Assembly: GCA_027483445.1 (NCBI GenBank)
Contig: JAIXUS010000071.1
Location: forward strand, 1-64,000
Length of the DNA: 64,000 nucleotides
Reading direction: 5' to 3'
DNA from: Bacteroidota bacterium
GTDB lineage: Bacteria > Bacteroidota > Bacteroidia > M30B66
Below, piece after piece: positions 1-36,338 of the stretch. Each line of letters opens with the position of its first letter. The stretch's first letter is position 1. Position numbers and translations under genes: made by a program. The notes beneath the pieces are model-generated. The model searched no databases. It was not told the origin of the DNA and saw only the letters and a list, made by a program, of their open reading frames with translations.

Positions 1-672
1 AGAGGAAGTTCAATAACACTGTCCGTTAACGGTTCGCGCATAAACGCTGGTTGGGTTTGGTGACCGAAAGTTATCAGTTCACCACGAAATTTCCAAAGGA
101 CCGAGAGCTCAAATTTTCTCCAAAAACCCAACTGGCGATTATGCGCTGTTACATGCCGGCATTTGTCCACATACATTGGTAGTAATCTGTTTGGGCGAAT
201 TGAGACAGTCAACATTGCCTCAAAAGTAGGCTCGCGAGAATTCCAGGATTGATGATTCAGCTTTTCATTTTTTCATCATGGAGCGGCGCATTTTATTCCG
301 CAGAAAAGTCAGCCCATTTAAAATTTAGTCCTAGCGCCGATCATTCAGCGATTCAATTGTCAGCCAGTGAATATTTGTTCAGCTGTTGATTTCAGCAAGT
401 GCAAACATTTCAGCCGGCGCGGTTTGTTCAATTGTCCTTTCGTCTTGGAAATAATTGAGTCAACTCGATTTAAAGAAATCAGCAAGCGCCGATTTTATAA
501 TTGTCCTTTCACGTTTAAAATATTCAGGTCTGCAAATTGAGTCAGCAAGTTTTAAAAATCCAACCGGCGCGATTTTCTATTTTTCAATTCGCCGCGGAAA
601 ACGAGCGAAAGAACACTCACAATGCTGGCATGTAACATGTTCATTTTTATGAAGATGGCAGAACGCCGCAGA

Positions 673-888
673 ATGGAGTTTTTAGGGAAAAGAGTATCCA
701 CCCTTGATGAATTAAAACACGAAGGATTTGGAGGCCCTAGAATTGGATTTTCCAGTTATAACGATTGGGATAAATTCATTCAGGACGAATTAAAATACAC
801 CGATGATCCGAAATGGATATCTGAGCTAAACAAATGGAAAGCCCTGTATCCACAGTTCAATAATCACAATCAAATTTCACTTTTTTAA
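673..888 (+). CDS. Hypothetical small protein
   Basis: ORF; start moved to ATG 673 (MEFLGKRV...); directly upstream of the leader motif of the next gene. Confidence 0.5.
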   Translation: MEFLGKRVSTLDELKHEGFGGPRIGFSSYNDWDKFIQDELKYTDDPKWISELNKWKALYPQFNNHNQISLF

Positions 889-899
889 ACCCACTCAAA

Positions 900-1706
900 A
901 TGAAACAAATTCCGATTTTATTCAAACCAGAAATGGTGAAGGCCATTTTAAATGACCTTAAAACACAGACTAGACGAGTCATAAATCCACAGCCGGCAGT
1001 AAGTGAAGCTCGTTATGACGGGACATTAGTTGATATGGACGAAAAGCTTTATCATTTTTTGGAGCATACAGAGAACGGCGACCCATTTGAGAAATACTAT
1101 AACTTAGGTCTATGCCCATACGGCAATACCGGAGATGTGCTTTGGGTGAGGGAAACGTGGATGCGTTTACCTAGAGCAGGATTTTATGCTTACAAGGCAA
1201 GTCACCCATCATTTGAAAAAGGTGAGCTCAAGAATAATCTTTTACACGAGTATGGATATAGATGGAAACCATCCATCCACATGCCGAAGGAAGCCTGTAG
1301 ATTATTTCTTGAGAATAAGAATGTACGTGTTCAGAGAATTAGTCAAATATCCGATGAAGATTGCATTGCCGAGGGAATTGAGTTTGTTGGCGAGGATTTA
1401 ATAGCAGGCGGAGAGATGTATCGTGGTAAATGGTACCATAACTATGGGAAATATGGATATACTTTTTTAAGTCCCCGTGATAGCTTTATCTCGCTTTGGC
1501 AGTCAATTAATGGAGTTCCTAAGCCTATTCAGATAGTAATTGACGGAAAGCTTAAAACTATTGGATATATAGTTTTCCCCTTCAATGAAGAATACGCAGA
1601 GCCTTTTTCCGGATTAACAAAATGGAGAGGTAAACCACTTACTGTTGCTACTAACCCTTGGGTTTGGGTGATTGAATTTGAAAGAATGAAAGGGGGTGTG
1701 AAATGA
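900..1706 (+). CDS. ASCH-like phage protein
   Basis: N-terminus MKQIPILFKPEMVKAILNDLKTQTRRVINPQP and GDVLWVRETW resemble phage ASCH-type proteins. Confidence 0.7.
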   Translation: MKQIPILFKPEMVKAILNDLKTQTRRVINPQPAVSEARYDGTLVDMDEKLYHFLEHTENGDPFEKYYNLGLCPYGNTGDVLWVRETWMRLPRAGFYAYKASHPSFEKGELKNNLLHEYGYRWKPSIHMPKEACRLFLENKNVRVQRISQISDEDCIAEGIEFVGEDLIAGGEMYRGKWYHNYGKYGYTFLSPRDSFISLWQSINGVPKPIQIVIDGKLKTIGYIVFPFNEEYAEPFSGLTKWRGKPLTVATNPWVWVIEFERMKGGVK

Positions 1707-2221
1707 ATCGTCACGCAATATTTTCCCCATCCGGTAAATACCGATATGTATTAATTCGGACTTGGGATCCTACACTGGAATCTGTTGCATTTATAATGCT
1801 TAATCCTTCAACAGCAGACGAAAAAAAAGATGATGCTACAATTAGGAGGTGTATTGGATTTACGAAGGATTGGGGCTTTGGGAAATTAGTTGTATTGAAC
1901 CTTTTTGCTATGGTTGCCACAAAACCCAAAGATCTGCTAAACGAATCCAATCCTATTGGAAATGACAATGAAGCCTTTATTCAATCATTTACGAAGGATT
2001 CAAAGTTTATTATCTGTGCGTGGGGTAATTCATTGATTGTAAAACAGCTTTTGAAGAAGTGTCCTAATTACAAACCATTCAAAAACCTAAAACATCCACT
2101 GTTCTACTTGGATTTATGTAATGATGGAACCCCTAAACATCCTCTCTATTTACGGAAGGATTTAAATCCAATCCCTTTCCATTATTCGAGAGTTTCACTT
2201 ACAAAATACGGCGAGTTATGA
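1703..2221 (+). CDS. DUF1643 domain protein
   Basis: FIMLNPSTADEKKDDATIRRCIGFTKDWGFGKLVVLNLFA is characteristic of DUF1643. Confidence 0.85.
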   Translation: MNRHAIFSPSGKYRYVLIRTWDPTLESVAFIMLNPSTADEKKDDATIRRCIGFTKDWGFGKLVVLNLFAMVATKPKDLLNESNPIGNDNEAFIQSFTKDSKFIICAWGNSLIVKQLLKKCPNYKPFKNLKHPLFYLDLCNDGTPKHPLYLRKDLNPIPFHYSRVSLTKYGEL

Positions 2222-3678
2222 CAAAATCAATCATTGATGTTACCGACCAATTTTGCGGTGCCGGAGGCAGCTCTCAAGGCGTGAGAAACTTTAGCCGCCG
2301 TATTGGTGGTGGTGTAGAGGTAAAACTTGCCTTAAATCACTGGAAGCTTGCCATTGAAACACACAGCACCAATTTTCAAGAAACACTGCACGACTGCACG
2401 GATATTTCCGCATGCGACCCACGTCGTTACCCGAGAACCTCAATTCTCATTACATCACCCGAATGTACAAATCACAGTTTGGCGAAAGGTCAAAAACAGG
2501 TAAAGGCCCAGCTGGATTTGTTCGATTCCGGCAAGCTCGATCCGGCAGCCGAAAGGAGCCGGGCAACGATGTGGGATGTTTGCCGATTTGCAGAGTATCA
2601 CCAATATGAGTGCATAATCGTCGAGAATGTTGTTGATGCCCGTAAATGGATTATGTGGGAAGCCTGGTTAAAGGCAATGCATTTGTTGGGCTACAGGCAT
2701 AAATGTGTGTACTTAAATAGCCAGCATTGCCATCCAACACCACAGAGCCGAGATAGAATGTATGTTGTGTTTTGGAAAAAAGGGAACAAGGCCCCAAAGC
2801 TTGACTACACGCCTCGGGCATACTGTCAGCAGTGTGGAAATGATGTAAATGCTATTCAAACTTGGAAACGCCCTGATGTTAAATTTGGGAAATACAAGCA
2901 GCAATACTTGTATCGTTGCCCGGTGCATGGATGCGTGGTAGAGCCATACTATTACGCAGCATTTAATATCATTGATTGGAGCGATAAAGGGAAGCGAATC
3001 GGCGACCGAAAGAAAGCTCTTAGCGATAACACCCTTCGACGGATTAAACATGGTTTGCAGAAGTATGGCAACCAAGCCTTGACGGTTGCTAATTATAATT
3101 CAGGTTATTGTAAACCCTCTTATGAACCTATCGGAACATTAACAACTTCTGGTCAGATAGGAATAGCAATGCCTTTCATAATAAAAGGCGAACACACCCT
3201 GATGAATGGCTATGTAAAGTCTGCAATGGAGGCGGCGCAAACACAAACGGTTCGGCAGTCGATGGGAATGGTTTTCCCGAGCATAATCGAGATGAATAGA
3301 ACTGGAGAATGTAAGCCAGCAACAGAGCCAACAGCAACAATAACAGCCGGTGGGATCAACCATGCAATAATACAGCCTGAAAGCCTTAAATCCTTTTTGG
3401 CATACAACTACTCCGGTAACCAGGTTTCTCGGATTACCGATCCTATTGACACCGTTTCGACCGTCGATAGAGCAGCCATTATTCAAAACATCGACGAGCT
3501 GGTTGAGAATTGCTATTACCGCATGATTAAACCACACGAGGTAAAGCTTGCAATGGCTTTCGATAAAGACTACATAATTCTCGGCGACGGCAAAGCACAA
3601 GTGAAACAATGCGGTAATGCTGTAACGCCACCGGTCATGGAGTGGTTGGTGGAGCAGTGTGTAACGTCTTTAATGTAA
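2218..3678 (+). CDS. C5 cytosine DNA methyltransferase
   Basis: Motif I DQFCGAGGSSQG, SPECTNHS in place of PCQ, VENV, QSRDRMYVVF, C-terminal QCGNAVTPPV. Confidence 0.93.
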   Translation: MTKSIIDVTDQFCGAGGSSQGVRNFSRRIGGGVEVKLALNHWKLAIETHSTNFQETLHDCTDISACDPRRYPRTSILITSPECTNHSLAKGQKQVKAQLDLFDSGKLDPAAERSRATMWDVCRFAEYHQYECIIVENVVDARKWIMWEAWLKAMHLLGYRHKCVYLNSQHCHPTPQSRDRMYVVFWKKGNKAPKLDYTPRAYCQQCGNDVNAIQTWKRPDVKFGKYKQQYLYRCPVHGCVVEPYYYAAFNIIDWSDKGKRIGDRKKALSDNTLRRIKHGLQKYGNQALTVANYNSGYCKPSYEPIGTLTTSGQIGIAMPFIIKGEHTLMNGYVKSAMEAAQTQTVRQSMGMVFPSIIEMNRTGECKPATEPTATITAGGINHAIIQPESLKSFLAYNYSGNQVSRITDPIDTVSTVDRAAIIQNIDELVENCYYRMIKPHEVKLAMAFDKDYIILGDGKAQVKQCGNAVTPPVMEWLVEQCVTSLM

Positions 3679-3719
3679 AACAGCGCAGGACTGATTTCCT
3701 GAATAACAAGCACAACACA

Positions 3720-3959
3720 ATGGATAGCGTATACAGAATTGCATCATCTGAAAAGATTGGTGGAAATTTTTTCACTGTCGGTAAAAAGTCGAAAGTCACA
3801 GAAAAAATATTCTGGGATATTGTTGAGAAAAATGTAAAGTACATAACTCGAAATCAACCGAACAAATTTTCTGAAACACTTGAATTAGTTAAAAGTCACC
3901 TTATGAAAAAGGAAGCATTGACAATTGGCGATACTTGGTTTAAAATTTCAAATAGATAA
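3720..3959 (+). CDS. Hypothetical small phage protein
   Basis: ORF start moved to ATG 3720, after the repeated leader. Confidence 0.55.
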   Translation: MDSVYRIASSEKIGGNFFTVGKKSKVTEKIFWDIVEKNVKYITRNQPNKFSETLELVKSHLMKKEALTIGDTWFKISNR

Positions 3960-3999
3960 CAGCGCAGGACTGATTTCCTGAATAAATACAATCAAAACA

Positions 4000-4323
4000 A
4001 TGGATAACACCGAAAAATTAAACTGCTGGGCAGTGGTAGAGCTTATGGGCCACCAAAAGATTGCCGGACACATTTCTGAAACAACTGTTGCCGGCGCTGC
4101 GATGCTTCGCGTTGATGTGCCGGAAACAAAGACAAAGCCTGAATTCACTCGATTTCTTGGCGCATCGGCTATTTATGCCATTAATCCATGCACTGAGGAG
4201 TTTGCTCGCCAGTGCTGTGAGGCTCTCGACCTGAGACCTGTTCAAATCTGGGAAGTTGACCGGGAAATTCAAAAGAAGGTAGAAGAGCGTGTTAACTGGA
4301 GATTAGAACAACATAATCACTAA
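4000..4323 (+). CDS. Hypothetical phage protein
   Basis: ORF (MDNTEKLNCWAVVELMGHQKIAGHISE...) preceded by the same 28-bp leader as 3720. Confidence 0.7.
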   Translation: MDNTEKLNCWAVVELMGHQKIAGHISETTVAGAAMLRVDVPETKTKPEFTRFLGASAIYAINPCTEEFARQCCEALDLRPVQIWEVDREIQKKVEERVNWRLEQHNH

Positions 4324-4358
4324 CAGCCTTGGACGGGCTTTGTAAAATCCAAAACAAA

Positions 4359-4604
4359 ATGCTAGAATTTTTAGGTAAAAAAGCAAAAGACAAAATCACA
4401 GGGTTTGAGGGGATAATCACCTCAAAGCACATTTACTTAACTGGATGCAATCAATATGGTATCCAGCCCCCTGTTGATAGCAACGGCAAAATTCCCACTG
4501 TAGGATATTTTGATGAGGGTAGAATTGAAATCATCGGTGAGGGAATAGCCCCCAGTGATGTTGTTGCTGATCAAAAAGGATGTGATTTTCGAGAGCATCC
4601 ATAG
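4359..4604 (+). CDS. Hypothetical small phage protein
   Basis: ORF start moved to ATG 4359 (MLEFLGKKAKDKITGFEGII...). Confidence 0.65.
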   Translation: MLEFLGKKAKDKITGFEGIITSKHIYLTGCNQYGIQPPVDSNGKIPTVGYFDEGRIEIIGEGIAPSDVVADQKGCDFREHP

Positions 4605-4614
4605 TAGTTCGGTC

Positions 4615-4650
4615 AATCACAGGATGCTTGCTGAAAGGCATCCTGTGATT
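4615..4650. terminator. 13-bp perfect hairpin between convergent genes, terminator-like without a T tract
   Basis: AATCACAGGATGC / GCATCCTGTGATT with a 10-nt loop. Confidence 0.5.
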
Positions 4651-4692
4651 ACTGATAACGTTCTCATGCCATGATCTATTAAGAGTTGATTT

Positions 4693-5103
4693 TTAATTTC
4701 TCATCAGTTCCATTAAATTATTTCCTTCTATATCTCCTAAGTTATCACCAAGAATTTCGGTTGCTATTGGTTTGAAAAATTCATTGAAATCGCTCGATTT
4801 ATCAATCACTTTATTGTCTGTCATATCAATTAGATAAAACATTCGATTAGCTCCTTGATTTGTTTGATAAATATATCTTGCAATTTCGTATTCATTATCT
4901 TTGTTTACATCAGTGAATTGAGAAACTATTGAATAGTGCACCGGAAGGCAAAAGATATCTTCCTTTAGTTTTTCGATTTCGTTCATTTTTTTTAGATTGT
5001 GGATTCCGAAATATGATTCGTCAATTATTGCTTTAACCTTATCCTCCTTTGAAGTACAAGAGGTAAAAACCATAATTAGAGTCGAGAAAATTATTTTTTT
5101 CAT
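4693..5103 (-). CDS. Hypothetical lipoprotein (accessory gene)
   Basis: ORF with N-terminal MKKIIFSTLIMVFTSCTSK lipoprotein-type signal. Confidence 0.65.
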   Translation of the reverse strand: MKKIIFSTLIMVFTSCTSKEDKVKAIIDESYFGIHNLKKMNEIEKLKEDIFCLPVHYSIVSQFTDVNKDNEYEIARYIYQTNQGANRMFYLIDMTDNKVIDKSSDFNEFFKPIATEILGDNLGDIEGNNLMELMRN

Positions 5104-5144
5104 TCTTGTTTGTTAAATTTGTTCACCTTTTTAATTCAAAAAAC

Positions 5145-5456
5145 ATGCCAATTGATTACAAAATATATCATCCAAAGTGGAAGCTTATTTCCCGTTTAAT
5201 TCGATTTAAACGTGCTCAGAATAAATGTGAATGGTGTGGGGCTGAAAACTATCAGCCTCACCCATTAACGGGTTCAAAAGTGATTTTAACCGTTGCTCAT
5301 ATTGACCGGAATAAAGACAACAACCGATTTAACAACCTTGCAGCTCTATGCCAACGGTGCCACCTGAATCATGATAAGGAGCAGCATGTGGCAAACAGGA
5401 AGTATAAAGAAAACCAGCTTTCTATAGACTATTGCGTTTCAAGAGAAGCCTTGTAA
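5145..5456 (+). CDS. HNH endonuclease family protein
   Basis: CEWCG, VAHIDRNKDNNRFNNLAALCQRCHLNHD; start moved to ATG 5145. Confidence 0.85.
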   Translation: MPIDYKIYHPKWKLISRLIRFKRAQNKCEWCGAENYQPHPLTGSKVILTVAHIDRNKDNNRFNNLAALCQRCHLNHDKEQHVANRKYKENQLSIDYCVSREAL

Positions 5457-5824
5457 TCAAGAAACTGTTTAATACGTCTAGCATTTAAATCATATAGTTT
5501 AACTGCTAATTCTTCAGCTTTGCTAATCTCTATATTGTAAAATGAAGTGTAAAGATTACCAAGCCTCGCACTGCTTTTTTTGTTGCTGTATTTGTTATAC
5601 AAATCAACTATTTCTTCAGCGTAATAATAATTGTTGTTTGCTTCATATACATCTCTAAAATACTGATCAAATTCTGGGCTTATTGAAATGTGATCAAAAT
5701 AAACTTGAGCATACTTCCTTTTTTTATTGATTATCACATAAGGAATCATTTCCTTTTTGCATTTCTCAAACCATTCATTCGCATCGTCAACATCGTTGCC
5801 TTTGATTATTTCAAATTTTTTCAT
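5429..5824 (-). CDS. Hypothetical protein (accessory gene)
   Basis: 131-aa ORF in the minus-strand accessory cluster. Confidence 0.6.
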   Translation of the reverse strand: MKKFEIIKGNDVDDANEWFEKCKKEMIPYVIINKKRKYAQVYFDHISISPEFDQYFRDVYEANNNYYYAEEIVDLYNKYSNKKSSARLGNLYTSFYNIEISKAEELAVKLYDLNARRIKQFLDYKASLETQ

Positions 5825-5825
5825 A

Positions 5826-6323
5826 TTAAAATTTTATGTATTCAGATTTTACAAAACCAATATTGTCGTTTTTCGGATTTTTCACTTTTATCCATCCGGT
5901 TTTTTCTTCCAAGATGATAAGTTGGTCATTTAATTTAAGCTCTTCCAGTATGCTTGAATTAGTATTTGGAGTCTCCCTTAAATTTAATGATTTGGATTTT
6001 ACATAAACCGTTTTTCCAACCTTGGAATAATATTTATTGTTTGAATTTCTTTCAGAGTCTCTATATCCATTTGATTTTTTATTTGTTGACACACGATTGC
6101 TGTAATTATAGCTTCTTCCTTTACTGCTACCTGTACAAACCCCGCAGGTGCCTCCATTACTACAGTGCTTGCAGCTTGAACAATTAGAACAAGCTGTGCA
6201 GTTATCAGAACCAGTACACCGAGCTTCCTTTGCATCACAGCATGAAGCTATTATCTTTTTTGATTGGGCGTTTAGGCTTATTGCCACGAATAGAAGTAAA
6301 ATGGATAGGTATCTAGCTTTCAT
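5826..6323 (-). CDS. Secreted Cys-rich SH3b-like domain protein
   Basis: Signal peptide MKARYLSILLLFVAISLNAQ; Cys-rich segment; SLNLRETPNTNSSILEELKLNDQLIILEEKTGWIKV SH3b-like. Confidence 0.75.
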   Translation of the reverse strand: MKARYLSILLLFVAISLNAQSKKIIASCCDAKEARCTGSDNCTACSNCSSCKHCSNGGTCGVCTGSSKGRSYNYSNRVSTNKKSNGYRDSERNSNNKYYSKVGKTVYVKSKSLNLRETPNTNSSILEELKLNDQLIILEEKTGWIKVKNPKNDNIGFVKSEYIKF

Positions 6324-6405
6324 CTTATTTTGATTGCTTAGGTCTGGCAAAAATTTATAGTTTCAGTTTACAAATTACTGCGCTTGCAGAAAAGAAAAAT
6401 TGAGA

Positions 6406-6766
6406 TGGACACGATGGACACATGGACATAGAATTTTTATATAGTAGATTATCAATGTATTATATATTTCGAGAGGTTGTTTTGATGCCTGTTTTGTGTC
6501 CATCTGTGTCCATGTATGTCCAAGCATGTCCAAAAGTGGTTTGGACACAAACACCCCTCCCGTGGACACACATGGACATAAGCCTTTTTTGAGTGCAAGC
6601 CTAAAATTCTATGAATCAAACAGATGTAAGGTTTGTGTCCAAATGTCCATCGTGTCCAACGAAAAAACATGAAATTTTTGAAGCCGATTCAATTTGAAAT
6701 TGATTGAAGCCCTTCATCTTATTGATGATGTTAAAAACAGCCTGATAAGAAAAATTGAGATGGACA
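6406..6766. repeat. Iteron-like array of TGGACA/TGTCCA (7 copies on each strand)
   Basis: TGGACA at 6406, 6415, 6423, 6542, 6563, 6573, 6761; TGTCCA at 6497, 6507, 6517, 6527, 6636, 6644, 6653. Confidence 0.85.
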
Positions 6767-6800
6767 AGAATAATTGAGTGGTGCGCGTATTTTTGGGATA

Positions 6801-7322
6801 ATGACAGTCAAAGTAAGATTCGACCTGATTGCAAACTGTTATCTAAAGGAGCGGTATCCTGAAGGCATTCGCTACGATACCACAGATAACCTCACTATAT
6901 TTTTGTTTAGCCTGTTTCGTAAGCCAAAGCCCGGAGAAATTAATCGTGATGAAAGTGATGGGGTGTTGATTATTCTATCTGATCAGTGGGTGCATGATGG
7001 CCGGATATTTATTTCCGCTTCATCGGTTAAGTCGGCGAAACTGTTCGTTGAGAATTTTGTCAAGGACCAGCTTTTCCATGAGCTTGAATTACTCCTGGTT
7101 AATACACCACACAAAAGGTTCCGGGGAATAAATTTCTGCATCGATAACTTTATGAATCGATACGGCCTCGACAAAGCTGCCGATCGCGAACGATTTAAAA
7201 AAGCGTTTTATCGCCACCGCCAAAAGATTGAAAAAATTTCGGGCAGTTTTGTCCCCTCGCGTCCCCTCGACTTAAACACTAATGTTCCTTACCATGGATA
7301 TCCTTCACCAGCCTCTCGATAA
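6801..7322 (+). CDS. Hypothetical phage protein
   Basis: ORF start moved to ATG 6801 (MTVKVRFDLIANCYLKERYPEG...). Confidence 0.65.
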   Translation: MTVKVRFDLIANCYLKERYPEGIRYDTTDNLTIFLFSLFRKPKPGEINRDESDGVLIILSDQWVHDGRIFISASSVKSAKLFVENFVKDQLFHELELLLVNTPHKRFRGINFCIDNFMNRYGLDKAADRERFKKAFYRHRQKIEKISGSFVPSRPLDLNTNVPYHGYPSPASR

Positions 7323-7761
7323 TATAGGAGGCAACCACCGTTCAATCTGGATTCTGCCAGCTTCAAAAGCTCCGGCATTCATTCAGGTATCTAAACTCAA
7401 TGTAATTACTGGGTTGAATCTATCCACTTGGAATAAGATTGATTTCACCTTCGATTCACTGAGCTTCGAACAAACACCGTTTACCTTCGAGGGTGAGGAT
7501 GGATTTCTGAAAGTTCTCGAAGGGATGATTCCTAAAGATCGTATCGAGGTAACACGCATACTGAACAAGTATCGAAACTCGATGGTGGTGGTGGTGTTTC
7601 AGGATCGCAACGGAACCAAGCGCCTTATAGGATCTAGGCAATATCCGGCACTGTTTACATATATAATAGGTAATGGCCCAAAGCCATCTGACCCAAATAT
7701 GTATAGAGTGACCATCCAACAGGCTGACCGCGACGAAGCCCCTTACTACTCAATAGAGTAG
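7294..7761 (+). CDS. Hypothetical phage protein
   Basis: ORF overlapping the preceding gene; start at ATG 7294. Confidence 0.65.
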   Translation: MDILHQPLDNIGGNHRSIWILPASKAPAFIQVSKLNVITGLNLSTWNKIDFTFDSLSFEQTPFTFEGEDGFLKVLEGMIPKDRIEVTRILNKYRNSMVVVVFQDRNGTKRLIGSRQYPALFTYIIGNGPKPSDPNMYRVTIQQADRDEAPYYSIE

Positions 7762-7816
7762 TGTCCTTTGTTCGCCATTTGTGGCCAATAATCTTTGTGG
7801 CCTCTTTAAGCTGCAA

Positions 7817-9172
7817 ATGGCGAAACAACTCATTCATGCCCTCGCAAGAGGATTGTGGGCAATGAACCCCGAATATGCGGAGGCTCAACTGCCTTACATT
7901 CATGGGTTGCTTCGCGGCAATGATTCATCGAATTTTTCTTTCAATGGCAAACTAAACGGCAATGCCCTTCCCTACATCGTAGCGGGAGGGCAAACTGTTT
8001 TTTTGGAGGCTGATACTTGGTACGGAAAGCAGCAGATGAACAGCATTCCGGCTGGATCTGTGGTAGTAGTGCCACTTTCCGGTCCAATCATGAAGGAGGA
8101 TTACTGCTTCACTCCCGGCAGTATGACCATCGCTCGATGGATTACCCAGCTGGCTCAGAATGGCAATGTGAAAGGTATTGTTCTTTCGGTTGATTCGCCA
8201 GGCGGTATGGTTGACGGCACTCAAACACTTGCTGATGCCATCAAATACGCCGCTAAAATCAAATCGGTTAAATCCTTCATCAACGATGGGATGGCATGTT
8301 CAGCCGGATACTGGATACCTTCGGCATCCGATGAAATCGTAGCTTCCAGAGCCACCGACACCATTGGCTCAATTGGAGTTTACGTTCAGCTTGCAGATTG
8401 GGAGAAATACTACCTCGATGAGCATAACCTTCGAGTGATCTCCATTTATGCCGACCAGAGCGATGAGAAGAATTCAACCTATATCGAGGCGCTCAAAGGC
8501 AACGATAAACTGATTAAGCGGGAAATGCTTAATCCACTTGCGGATGCCTTCATCAACGCGGTTAAAACCAACCGTGCCGGTAAGCTCAACCTGAGCGCCG
8601 GTGATCCATTCCGAGGAAAGGTTTACATGGCCGAAGAGGCTAAAGAAATTGGCCTTATAGACCGCATCGCATCACTCGAAGAGGTGATCGATGGTATCGC
8701 TTCGAGCAGCTCATCAAAATCCACGCACTTAATCCAATCCAATACCATGAAGAAGTTCTCTATCAGCGGGAAGCTTGCTAGCCTTTTCGCGTTCCTTAAA
8801 ACTGATGCTCCGGCCGCTGATGCCTCCAAAGAGGTTGAACTTTCGGATGATCAAATGGCCTCTGTTTTCGAAAAAGCGAATGCCGCTATTGGCCTCGAAG
8901 CACAGGTTAAAACACTTGGCGAACAGCTCCAGGCTGCCAATGAGGCGAAAGCGACATTGGAGGGCACCGTAGCCACACTCACCAAGGATAAAGAAACCCT
9001 TGGCGGTCAGGTAATATCGCTTAAAGCGGATGTTGAAAGCCTCAAGGGAGCACCCGGTGCAGGCCCTCACCAAGTATTCCGCAAAGGAGCGGATTCAGAT
9101 CCAGGAAATCCAACTGCAGGCCCAGGCCAAACTTCGGTTGATGCTGAGGCAAAATCTGCCGCAACTGCCTAA
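7817..9172 (+). CDS. S49-family (SppA/ClpP-like) prohead protease with C-terminal scaffold-like region
   Basis: VVVPLSGPI, VLSVDSPGGMVDGT, GMACSAGYWIPSASDEI; Ala/Glu/Lys-rich coiled C-terminus. Confidence 0.85.
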   Translation: MAKQLIHALARGLWAMNPEYAEAQLPYIHGLLRGNDSSNFSFNGKLNGNALPYIVAGGQTVFLEADTWYGKQQMNSIPAGSVVVVPLSGPIMKEDYCFTPGSMTIARWITQLAQNGNVKGIVLSVDSPGGMVDGTQTLADAIKYAAKIKSVKSFINDGMACSAGYWIPSASDEIVASRATDTIGSIGVYVQLADWEKYYLDEHNLRVISIYADQSDEKNSTYIEALKGNDKLIKREMLNPLADAFINAVKTNRAGKLNLSAGDPFRGKVYMAEEAKEIGLIDRIASLEEVIDGIASSSSSKSTHLIQSNTMKKFSISGKLASLFAFLKTDAPAADASKEVELSDDQMASVFEKANAAIGLEAQVKTLGEQLQAANEAKATLEGTVATLTKDKETLGGQVISLKADVESLKGAPGAGPHQVFRKGADSDPGNPTAGPGQTSVDAEAKSAATA

Positions 9173-13590: not shown

Positions 13591-14210
13591 GGATTCATAA
13601 CCTCTTACCTGAAGCGAGAAACAAAATGGAACGCATCTACAACTACGTTTGCGGAGCTGTAGAGGATTCTGGATTGAGTGATGACGAAAAGGCGCTCTTA
13701 GAGCGCTGCAATTTTGCCGATGATCTATTGCGCCAACGCCATACCGATTCGGCCGTTGTGCGCATGCTCCGGCTTAAATTCGGGGTGTCACAGGCCACAG
13801 CATACAACGATGTGGCGACCACCAAATACATATTCAGCAGCATTCCGCTATCTGAAAAGGAATACGGCCTTAAACTCATGCTGGAGCTGAACATGAAAGT
13901 GATTCAGAAGTGCATGGAGAAAGGCGATTACAAGATTGTACGTGAGCTGCAGGAAACCCGGTTGAAGATATTCGACCGCATTAAGGGTGTAGATGAACTG
14001 CGCGAGGAATTGTCCGGAAATAACCGTCAGTCGAACACCTTCATCCTTCGGGTTTCTGTGAGTGATTCAGGAGGTCGCCCAAGAGACTTGGACATGATGA
14101 AAGATATCCAGGATCTCGGTGATGATGAAGTTGAAATGATCAATAATCGGGTGAATTCTGCTTTCATACCCGATAGCCTGATAGCCCAAATCAAAAAAAC
14201 TGATGAGTAA
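13587..14210 (+). CDS. Putative terminase small subunit
   Basis: HTH-like RMLRLKFGVSQATAYNDV; directly upstream of TerL. Confidence 0.65.
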   Translation: MRIHNLLPEARNKMERIYNYVCGAVEDSGLSDDEKALLERCNFADDLLRQRHTDSAVVRMLRLKFGVSQATAYNDVATTKYIFSSIPLSEKEYGLKLMLELNMKVIQKCMEKGDYKIVRELQETRLKIFDRIKGVDELREELSGNNRQSNTFILRVSVSDSGGRPRDLDMMKDIQDLGDDEVEMINNRVNSAFIPDSLIAQIKKTDE

Positions 14211-15849
14211 CCACATCCCATTGAAGTTTAACCGGTACCAGTTGCTTTCGCATCTCAATTTTGGGACGCGAAACACCCACATTTGTGGCCGTGGTGTCGG
14301 TAAAACCACCAATATCGGATGGATAATGCACAACGTGGTAACTGACATGCCACGTTCAGCCAATGCACTTGTTTGCCGCACATACCTTCAGGCGCTCACT
14401 AGAACACTGCCGGCTGTTATTGCCGGCCTTGAAACATTCGGCTACCGGCTTGGTCGAGATTTTTTGGTAGGGAAAGAGCCGCCAAGGCACTGGGAACGGC
14501 CATATTTTCCACCGCTCAGTTATGAGCACTTCATCGCTTTTCCGAATGGTGCCGGATATCACCTGGTAAGTCAGGATCGAAAAGGAACAGCCCGAGGATT
14601 CAATATCGATTCATGGATTGCTGATGAAGGGCTAAATCTGATAAAACAAATGCTCGATGATGAGATTTCAGTGGCCAATCGCGGAAACCTTTCGCGTTTC
14701 GCTCATTCACGCTATCATCATTCTGAAACCATCGTAAGTTCACAGCCTATTCTTCCGGAGAGCAAATGGCTTTTGGAAGCTTCTCAATATTATCGCATCG
14801 GAGGGCAGGATTATGAAGATTTCAGAAATGAGCTGGTCGATGTGCTGATGAACATCATCGACGCGAACACCGAGGAAGAAATAGAGCATCACTGGCAATT
14901 TGCCAAGAAGCTCAAGCGTGAGTTCAAATTCTATCGGCATACCGATATCATTCCGGTGACCAATGAAAAGCTGACATCTTTCTTCATCGATGCAGATGTG
15001 TTCGATAACATCGAGAATCTTGGATGGAAGTACATCAGGCAGCAACGCGCCTCGATGAGTGATCTTACGTTCCGGGTGGAGATTCTCAATGCCATCTTCA
15101 CCATTTCTGAGAAAGGCTTTTATCCTGATTTGGCAGACCGCCACCTATACGATATCAGCGATTATTCTGCATTTGATGAACTGATCTACTCGGTTAATCC
15201 CGGTGAAGGTGTGAACTCGCTACTGGATCCTTCTATCAATCCGCAGATGCCCCTTCACATTGCTTGTGATTACGGGGGCTCGTTCAACTGTTTGTTGGCA
15301 TCACAGGAATACGTCGACGAAGAGCGCATCGTCTCTGAATTCTACGCTTACCATCCTGAGAAGATGGATAATGTGGTGAATCAGTTCATCAAATACTTTG
15401 GCTCGCACCCCAAGAAGGAGGTTCACTTTTGGTATGACCAAACGGCCATCGGTACCAGTGGTTTGATTGAGTTTAACTACGCTGATGAAGTTCAGCGTTT
15501 GTTGCGTCAGGCCGGTTGGGATGTTCGGCCCCATTACGTTGGAGCTGCACCACCACACCCTATTAAATACCAGTTTATCGGTAAGCTTTTGTCGGAACGA
15601 GATCCATCGCTACCAAAGGTGCGGATGCATCGCGAGAACTGTAGAGCTACCTACAATTCCATGCGTATGGTAGCCATAAAGCAAGGGCGCAATGGATTTG
15701 AGAAGGACAAGTCGCCTGAGAAGAAATCCTCAGTTGACCAGGCGAAAGCCCCTCACCTTAGCGATGCCTTCGATGTGCTGATGTACCACAAGCACGCCGA
15801 TAAGCAGCAGGGTGATAGCGGCTGGAGTGGGGGAGCGGTAGGGCTTTAG
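14203..15849 (+). CDS. Terminase large subunit
   Basis: Walker A-like CGRGVGKTTNIG, DSWIADEGLN, nuclease-region ACDYGGSF and LSDAFDVLMY. Confidence 0.85.
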   Translation: MSNHIPLKFNRYQLLSHLNFGTRNTHICGRGVGKTTNIGWIMHNVVTDMPRSANALVCRTYLQALTRTLPAVIAGLETFGYRLGRDFLVGKEPPRHWERPYFPPLSYEHFIAFPNGAGYHLVSQDRKGTARGFNIDSWIADEGLNLIKQMLDDEISVANRGNLSRFAHSRYHHSETIVSSQPILPESKWLLEASQYYRIGGQDYEDFRNELVDVLMNIIDANTEEEIEHHWQFAKKLKREFKFYRHTDIIPVTNEKLTSFFIDADVFDNIENLGWKYIRQQRASMSDLTFRVEILNAIFTISEKGFYPDLADRHLYDISDYSAFDELIYSVNPGEGVNSLLDPSINPQMPLHIACDYGGSFNCLLASQEYVDEERIVSEFYAYHPEKMDNVVNQFIKYFGSHPKKEVHFWYDQTAIGTSGLIEFNYADEVQRLLRQAGWDVRPHYVGAAPPHPIKYQFIGKLLSERDPSLPKVRMHRENCRATYNSMRMVAIKQGRNGFEKDKSPEKKSSVDQAKAPHLSDAFDVLMYHKHADKQQGDSGWSGGAVGL

Positions 15850-36228: not shown

Positions 36229-36264
36229 TGCGCTGAAACCTTTGGTTATCAGCATTTTTACGAG

Positions 36265-36338
36265 TGTCCCCGGGGGGATTCGAACCCCCAACCAACAGAA
36301 CCGGAATCTGTCATTCTATCCAGTTGAACTACGAGGCC
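36265..36338 (-). tRNA. tRNA-Arg (anticodon CCG), phage attachment site
   Basis: Cloverleaf read by eye: ACAGA-TTCCGGT-TCTGT anticodon arm, GGGGG-TTCGAAT-CCCCC T arm; acceptor has a G2-A71 mismatch. Confidence 0.9.

Follow-up and report, generated by a model that had tools for sequence, protein, structure and literature searches.

A short piece of intergenic DNA with fourteen copies of one hexamer on both strands raises the question of what these repeats do. The preliminary description of the window (the whole stretch of 64,000 nucleotides that was analysed, whose base 1 is the first base of contig C84) offered four readings: a replication origin, a partition site, a regulator array or a recombinase/transposase-type end. 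It counted 14 copies of TGGACA/TGTCCA in about 360 bp, seven on each strand, and all of them are exact copies within 361 bp, between positions 6406 and 6766. The order it gave along the array (three forward, four reverse, three forward, three reverse and one forward) is borne out by the hexamer positions. Spacing within the groups is mostly 8–10 bp, as described, with exceptions of 15 and 21 bp around 6542. That this is close to one DNA turn is weakly true; the best fit is a period of 9.2 bp (R=0.66), and 10.5 bp gives R=0.52. The features of the array are as follows, with their state in L347, the locus of a close relative.

6406, 6415, 6423, 6542, 6563, 6573, 6761, plus strand: forward hexamers
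6497, 6507, 6517, 6527, 6636, 6644, 6653, minus strand: reverse hexamers
6392–6411 (copy 1) and 6747–6766 (copy 2), plus strand: 20-bp direct repeat AAGAAAAATTGAGATGGACA
6406–6428, plus strand: iteron group 1, three TGGACA (6406, 6415, 6423); two exact and one degenerate in L347
6429–6496, no strand: AT-rich spacer between iteron groups 1 and 2, candidate melting region
6497–6532, minus strand: iteron group 2, four TGTCCA at 10-bp spacing; partly degenerate in L347 (CGTCCA, CGTCCA, TGTACA)
6542–6578, plus strand: iteron group 3, three TGGACA (6542, 6563, 6573); one exact copy in L347
6636–6658, minus strand: iteron group 4, three TGTCCA; all three kept in L347, spacing unchanged
6761–6766, plus strand: iteron 14, within copy 2 of the 20-bp direct repeat; no iteron aligned in L347
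6375–6569 and 6452–6670, both minus strand: short ORFs across the array, 64 and 72 aa

The array is exceptional through its clustering and not through the number of hexamers, which in the whole window is at chance level (27 observed, 29 expected). Markov shuffling of the 36.3-kb prophage region, repeated 60 times, gave maxima of 4–7 copies for any hexamer clustered on two strands within 361 bp, against the 14 observed. Triplets of the hexamer with gaps of 1–8 bp occur at this sole site in the assembly, and the cluster is unique in the genome. The spacer at 6429–6496 holds the AT-richest stretch of the array (a 60-bp AT fraction of 0.75 at 6421–6480), and its ATAGATTATCAAT-like core is kept in L347. 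The repeat AAGAAAAATTGAGATGGACA had been noticed at both ends; both copies are exact, and the 20-mer is absent elsewhere in the 4.26-Mb assembly at up to two mismatches. It is probably a local duplication in the lineage of the window, because it is single in L347. The array has no good ORF, as the preliminary description said: L347 differs from the window over the region of the two short ORFs by indels whose lengths are not divisible by three. An Rfam scan gave sub-threshold eukaryotic chance matches only.

The host of the array is most likely a prophage of about 41 kb, derived from a temperate tailed phage and integrated in a tRNA-Arg gene. Its landmarks in the window are listed here.

900–1706, plus strand: early gene, phrog_874; homologues between primase and array in L347, L193 and L197
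6774–7322, plus strand: first gene after the array, 182 aa, without known family; 50% identical homologue at the same place in L347
14203–15849: large terminase, 548 aa, without family match and assigned by similarity to relatives and synteny with MZ447863
34964–36295, minus strand: prophage integrase, of the tyrosine type; L347 has a homologue with 48% identity
36264–36338, minus strand: tRNA-Arg(CCG), where the prophage is attached; right prophage end (attR side)

The integrase gene overlaps the tRNA-Arg gene. The left end of the prophage lies outside the window; positions 1–7000 were searched for the tRNA end and no copy turned up. Early genes before the array encode a DUF1643 protein, a C5 methyltransferase and an HNH nuclease, and the head-maturation protease and other structural genes follow it. 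The array is a real, conserved element that sits at the early/late boundary. Minus-strand accessory genes at 4693–6350, which include a Cys-rich SH3-domain protein (5826–6350), share their slot with different minus-strand genes in L347 (12523–15005); this slot is probably a cargo region. A 17-bp sequence, TTAGGTCTGGCAAAAAT, at 6338–6354 is identical in L347:15037–15053 and adjoins the array. It lies just upstream of accessory genes that are unrelated between the window and L347, and it is possibly a promoter or control site of the cargo-gene slot.

When viral contigs were scanned motif-first for TGTCCA triplets at close spacing, at least 120 stretches matched, and 38 two-strand TGTCCA arrays were among the matches listed. 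SF3 helicase genes (VapE, D5 or DUF5906) were present at 22 of these 38 listed loci, as a rule with the array at that gene's 3′ end, against 1 of 15 two-strand arrays in the permuted-hexamer control; the HMMs were seeded from TGTCCA loci, which favours the TGTCCA set. This association is suggestive of an origin, and we therefore predicted a primase-helicase in the missing left part of the prophage. Single-protein searches of the viral contigs with 6774–7322 and 7781–9172 gave no matches. The Pfam VapE family was not found in the genome. Three DUF5906 proteins of about 770 aa, all on contig C67 (113134, 206145 and 216404), have no TGTCCA array nearby and were rejected as the initiator; they probably belong to other mobile elements. 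The 1016-aa primase of the relative L193 was also rejected, as the genome holds only a partial match to it, on C46.

The initiator gene is outside the window, and a candidate was found at the end of contig C86, which was reached by searching with the tRNA end. The order there is host RsmE, an attL-like tRNA fragment, repressor-like and Cro-like ORFs (so named from layout and appearance, with no Pfam match), small genes, a 746-aa protein and the contig end.

C86 near 109,745: attL-like tRNA copy CCCCGGAGGGATTCGAAC, with one mismatch to the attR side
C86 about 111,745–113,985: 746-aa primase/SF3-like helicase

The 746-aa protein matches phrog_22657 and phrog_1139 'DNA primase' (1.9e-26). Its matches to DUF927 and PriCT_2 are weak and below the cut-off, and no Pfam SF3 family was above the cut-off. 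Aligned homologues keep a P-loop, a Walker B-type acidic motif, a TGNE-like sensor and a conserved arginine, and from these motifs and homology we read the protein as a probable SF3-like helicase. Phages of Microcystis, Cellulophaga and Flavobacterium have homologues that carry the annotation primase, helicase or Toprim-domain protein. A contig scan of genomes with the C86 primase gave no relatives.

C86 and C84 are unjoined in the assembly. Because both contigs end in a dispersed integron-type repeat that is present at 29 places, we infer their physical join from synteny. L347 carries both parts in continuous order, which places the C86 primase and the window in a single phage layout. The L347 locus is the best of the 80 primase loci described below, with a primase 48% identical along its full length. 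In L347, tail genes and integrase like those of the window are followed by the C86 early genes and primase, early-gene homologues, a TGGACA array and late-gene homologues. The homologues between primase and array correspond to 900–1706, 1703–2221 and 5106–5456 of the window (the last is the HNH gene, 77%), and those after the array to 6774–7322, 7282–7761 and the protease. Hence the search for the array in relatives, which the preliminary description had proposed, shows that it is not absent from all of them. The L347 array has six exact TGGACA, three on each strand, plus degenerate copies at aligned positions. Iteron bases are identical at 56 of 72 positions (78%), against 170 of 334 (51%) for the remainder of the alignment across this intergenic DNA. 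The distance between array and primase is about 6.2 kb in L347 and at least 6.6 kb in the window phage.

A protein-first search is free of the bias of the motif-first scan. Six aligned primase homologues were used as the query against viral contigs, independently of any motif, and gave 80 loci. An array was counted where at least 7 copies of one hexamer lay on two strands within 400 bp. Such arrays occur in 65 of the 80 primase loci and in 0 of 80 shuffles. In 53 of the 80 loci the strongest array is close to the primase stop codon (array start from 700 bp before to 1200 bp after the stop), and in several others it is displaced by 1.2–5 kb. Among named phages with a homologous primase, Microcystis phage Mea-Yong924-1 (MZ447863) has nine copies of TGTCCG, which differs from TGTCCA by one base, and they lie just ahead of the RadC gene. 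The Flavobacterium phages laban6-1 and 1H (Duneviridae) also have two-strand arrays, with the iteron CTCAAC in place of that of the window, and there the array lies directly behind the 3′ end of the primase gene. The records shown for these three phages carry no origin annotation. Cellulophaga phage Ingeline_1 was examined and no array was found. More distant relatives in the structural genes have AGTCCA ten times (L193) and TGTCAA nine times (L201), both upstream of a 7282-like gene, and the relative L197 has GCCCGA ten times. In a VapE-first set, 48 of 80 loci carry arrays, compared with 2 of 80 shuffles, with a crude stop-codon assignment. TGT appears in 16 of those 48 arrays, and a TGT rule for VapE phages was dropped. 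A limited literature search for iterons with VapE or for primase-adjacent phage origins gave no match, and a prior description may exist.

TGT (ACA on the other strand) is part of the iteron consensus in 62 of 73 arrays and occurs in 27 of the 36 distinct top hexamers, against 11.5% of all eligible hexamers. The remaining triplet varies; it is CCA in the window and AGA, AGT, AGG, CCG, CAA, TGC and others elsewhere. Among 38 non-redundant primases with a TGTNNN iteron, the triplet tracks only one part of the protein once overall similarity is corrected for, residues from about 638 to 698 (partial r of 0.31–0.33, with other protein windows at or below 0.21). This maximum was reached in 0 of 300 label permutations and was located there in 188 of 200 bootstraps, in a partial Mantel-type test that can be liberal with related sequences. 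This statistical comparison points to an iteron-reading domain at the C-terminus of the primase. We tentatively suggest, at a little under even odds, that the primase family uses an evolvable code. A fixed TGT would be combined with a variable triplet picked by about 60 residues near the C-terminus, the whole array would be rewritten when this domain changes, and the origin could move several kilobases from the initiator gene.

One of the closest known architectures is that of the satellite phage P4. There the alpha protein has a primase and an SF3 helicase in one initiator and reads DNA with its C-terminal part, and ori and crr hold short iterons (GGTGAACA, with TGT on the other strand). The window phage would share such an initiator, the short iterons and, as the co-variation suggests, the C-terminal reading of DNA. 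In contrast to alpha, its primase has no Toprim domain and is not an alpha homologue, both by Pfam; the iteron sequence is also different and the predicted origin is displaced. In PICI/SaPI origins, two iteron sets flank an AT-rich region directly 3′ of the initiator gene, and the pri-rep-ori function of EcCICFT073 was tested on plasmids (PMC6092414). As in these elements, the predicted initiator is carried by the element and has a primase function (PMC6092414), but the window phage is a full tailed phage and not a satellite, and its primase is of a different family. We propose that the array works like P4/PICI origins. It has element-specific clustered short iterons (14 in 361 bp), groups 1 and 2 flank the AT-rich 6429–6496 (AT 0.75; the same layout is seen in L347), and the element encodes a predicted primase/SF3-like helicase initiator (with no Pfam SF3 above the cut-off). 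However, the array is not immediately 3′ of the initiator gene but about 6–7 kb away, at the early/late boundary.

The archaeal plasmid pRN1, which has been compared with P4, also has its origin downstream of a primase-SF3 initiator gene, and the initiator has a C-terminal DNA-binding domain (PMC4234260). Unlike the array, the pRN1 origin has no iterons and is a stem-loop of about 100 nt, which still functions when moved elsewhere on the plasmid (PMC4234260). Distance from the gene is therefore no objection in itself. The PLE satellite is likewise linked to a phage and has iterons that its own initiator recognises, but that initiator is a RepA_N protein with no predicted primase/helicase activity, and the iterons are longer (PMC7145576). 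Plasmid-type iterons are direct repeats of 17–22 bp with a Rep_3/RepA-type gene; the window core is 6 bp in both orientations, and no Rep gene was recognised next to it.

We conclude, with a probability of roughly 0.87, that the array is the replication origin of the temperate phage in tRNA-Arg, at which the C86 primase would bind, melt the DNA and load. This reading rests on the array itself, its conservation in a relative, its association with the primase family and the co-variation of protein and iteron, which together strongly support the first of the four readings. Upon induction, the 746-aa primase/SF3-like helicase would bind the TGGACA iterons through its C-terminal domain and assemble on both sides of the AT-rich spacer (6429–6496). 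The assembled protein would melt the spacer, load as a helicase-primase and prime synthesis, leading to theta replication. Against an origin, the array is about 6–7 kb from the primase gene, whereas most relatives have it directly 3′. The GC-skew check proposed in the preliminary description was uninformative, with no clear switch at the array.

The regulator array of the preliminary description would be an operator, at which a phage regulator binds the hexamers and controls the late operon from 6774, the divergent minus-strand genes, or both. The array stands directly before the first late gene in the window and in L347, promoter-like matches lie over the left iterons (5 found, 1.9 expected), and the adjoining 17 bp at 6338–6354 are identical in L347. 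As the sole function this is unlikely, since 53 of the 80 homologous loci have their array behind the primase gene, the iteron sequence tracks the C-terminal part of the primase, and fourteen copies over 360 bp exceed what a simple operator needs. Bordering the late operon, the array DNA may still have a regulatory function as a second role alongside the origin.

Clustered short repeats near late genes would also suit a parS-like partition site or another segregation or packaging site, and arrays adjoin terminase genes in L011, L021, L024 and others. We regard this as very improbable. Nothing favoured the partition site of the preliminary description: no ParA/ParB was found among the ORFs scanned (Pfam and PHROGs, covering part of the small ORFs), and the element, a prophage, is integrated and encodes a tyrosine integrase. 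The predicted terminase of the window (14203–15849) is about 7 kb beyond the array. Slightly less probable still is a third alternative, in which the array is either an end used by a transposase or recombinase or a set of repeats that expanded locally and has no function. The flanking 20-bp direct repeat had given reason to consider such an end, but the repeat is single in L347, where the iterons are conserved. The array is also internal to the prophage, with the right end at tRNA-Arg (36264–36338) and the attL-like piece on C86, and the tyrosine integrase at tRNA-Arg is about 29 kb away. A functionless expansion is at odds with the relatives, in which the same architecture is maintained with other hexamers; decay or drift would not give this result.

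For the window, a repeat cluster that had no explanation can now be read as a predicted origin, whose proposed initiator is identified on another contig. Of greater interest is the family-wide pattern. Most temperate phages have no mapped origin, and a two-strand cluster of one hexamer, usually just past the primase gene, gives a candidate origin in about four-fifths of the family members, among them named phages of Flavobacterium and Microcystis with no origin in their records. If the C-terminus does pick the three variable bases, the family would be a natural series of matched initiator/origin pairs. Origin specificity and switching would then be directly testable, and the pairs could give plasmid replicons for poorly tractable bacteria.

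The early region of the related prophage L193 also holds a reverse transcriptase gene (PF00078; L193:5737–6900) between primase and iteron array, possibly a retron-like or defence cargo. Integron-type DNA occupies positions 1–636 of the window, with an attC-like repeat of about 125 bp at 27–151. A leader region there is 94% identical to DNA (L158:3164–3772) just past a 593-aa integron-integrase-like ORF on contig C55, and the similarity ends at 636, where the phage genes start. The same integron-type repeat closes C86 just after the primase gene (L339:14087–14206). This is either an integron cassette array without integrase inside the prophage or a chimeric assembly at this point, and an integron-type insertion may lie between the primase and the early genes of the prophage.
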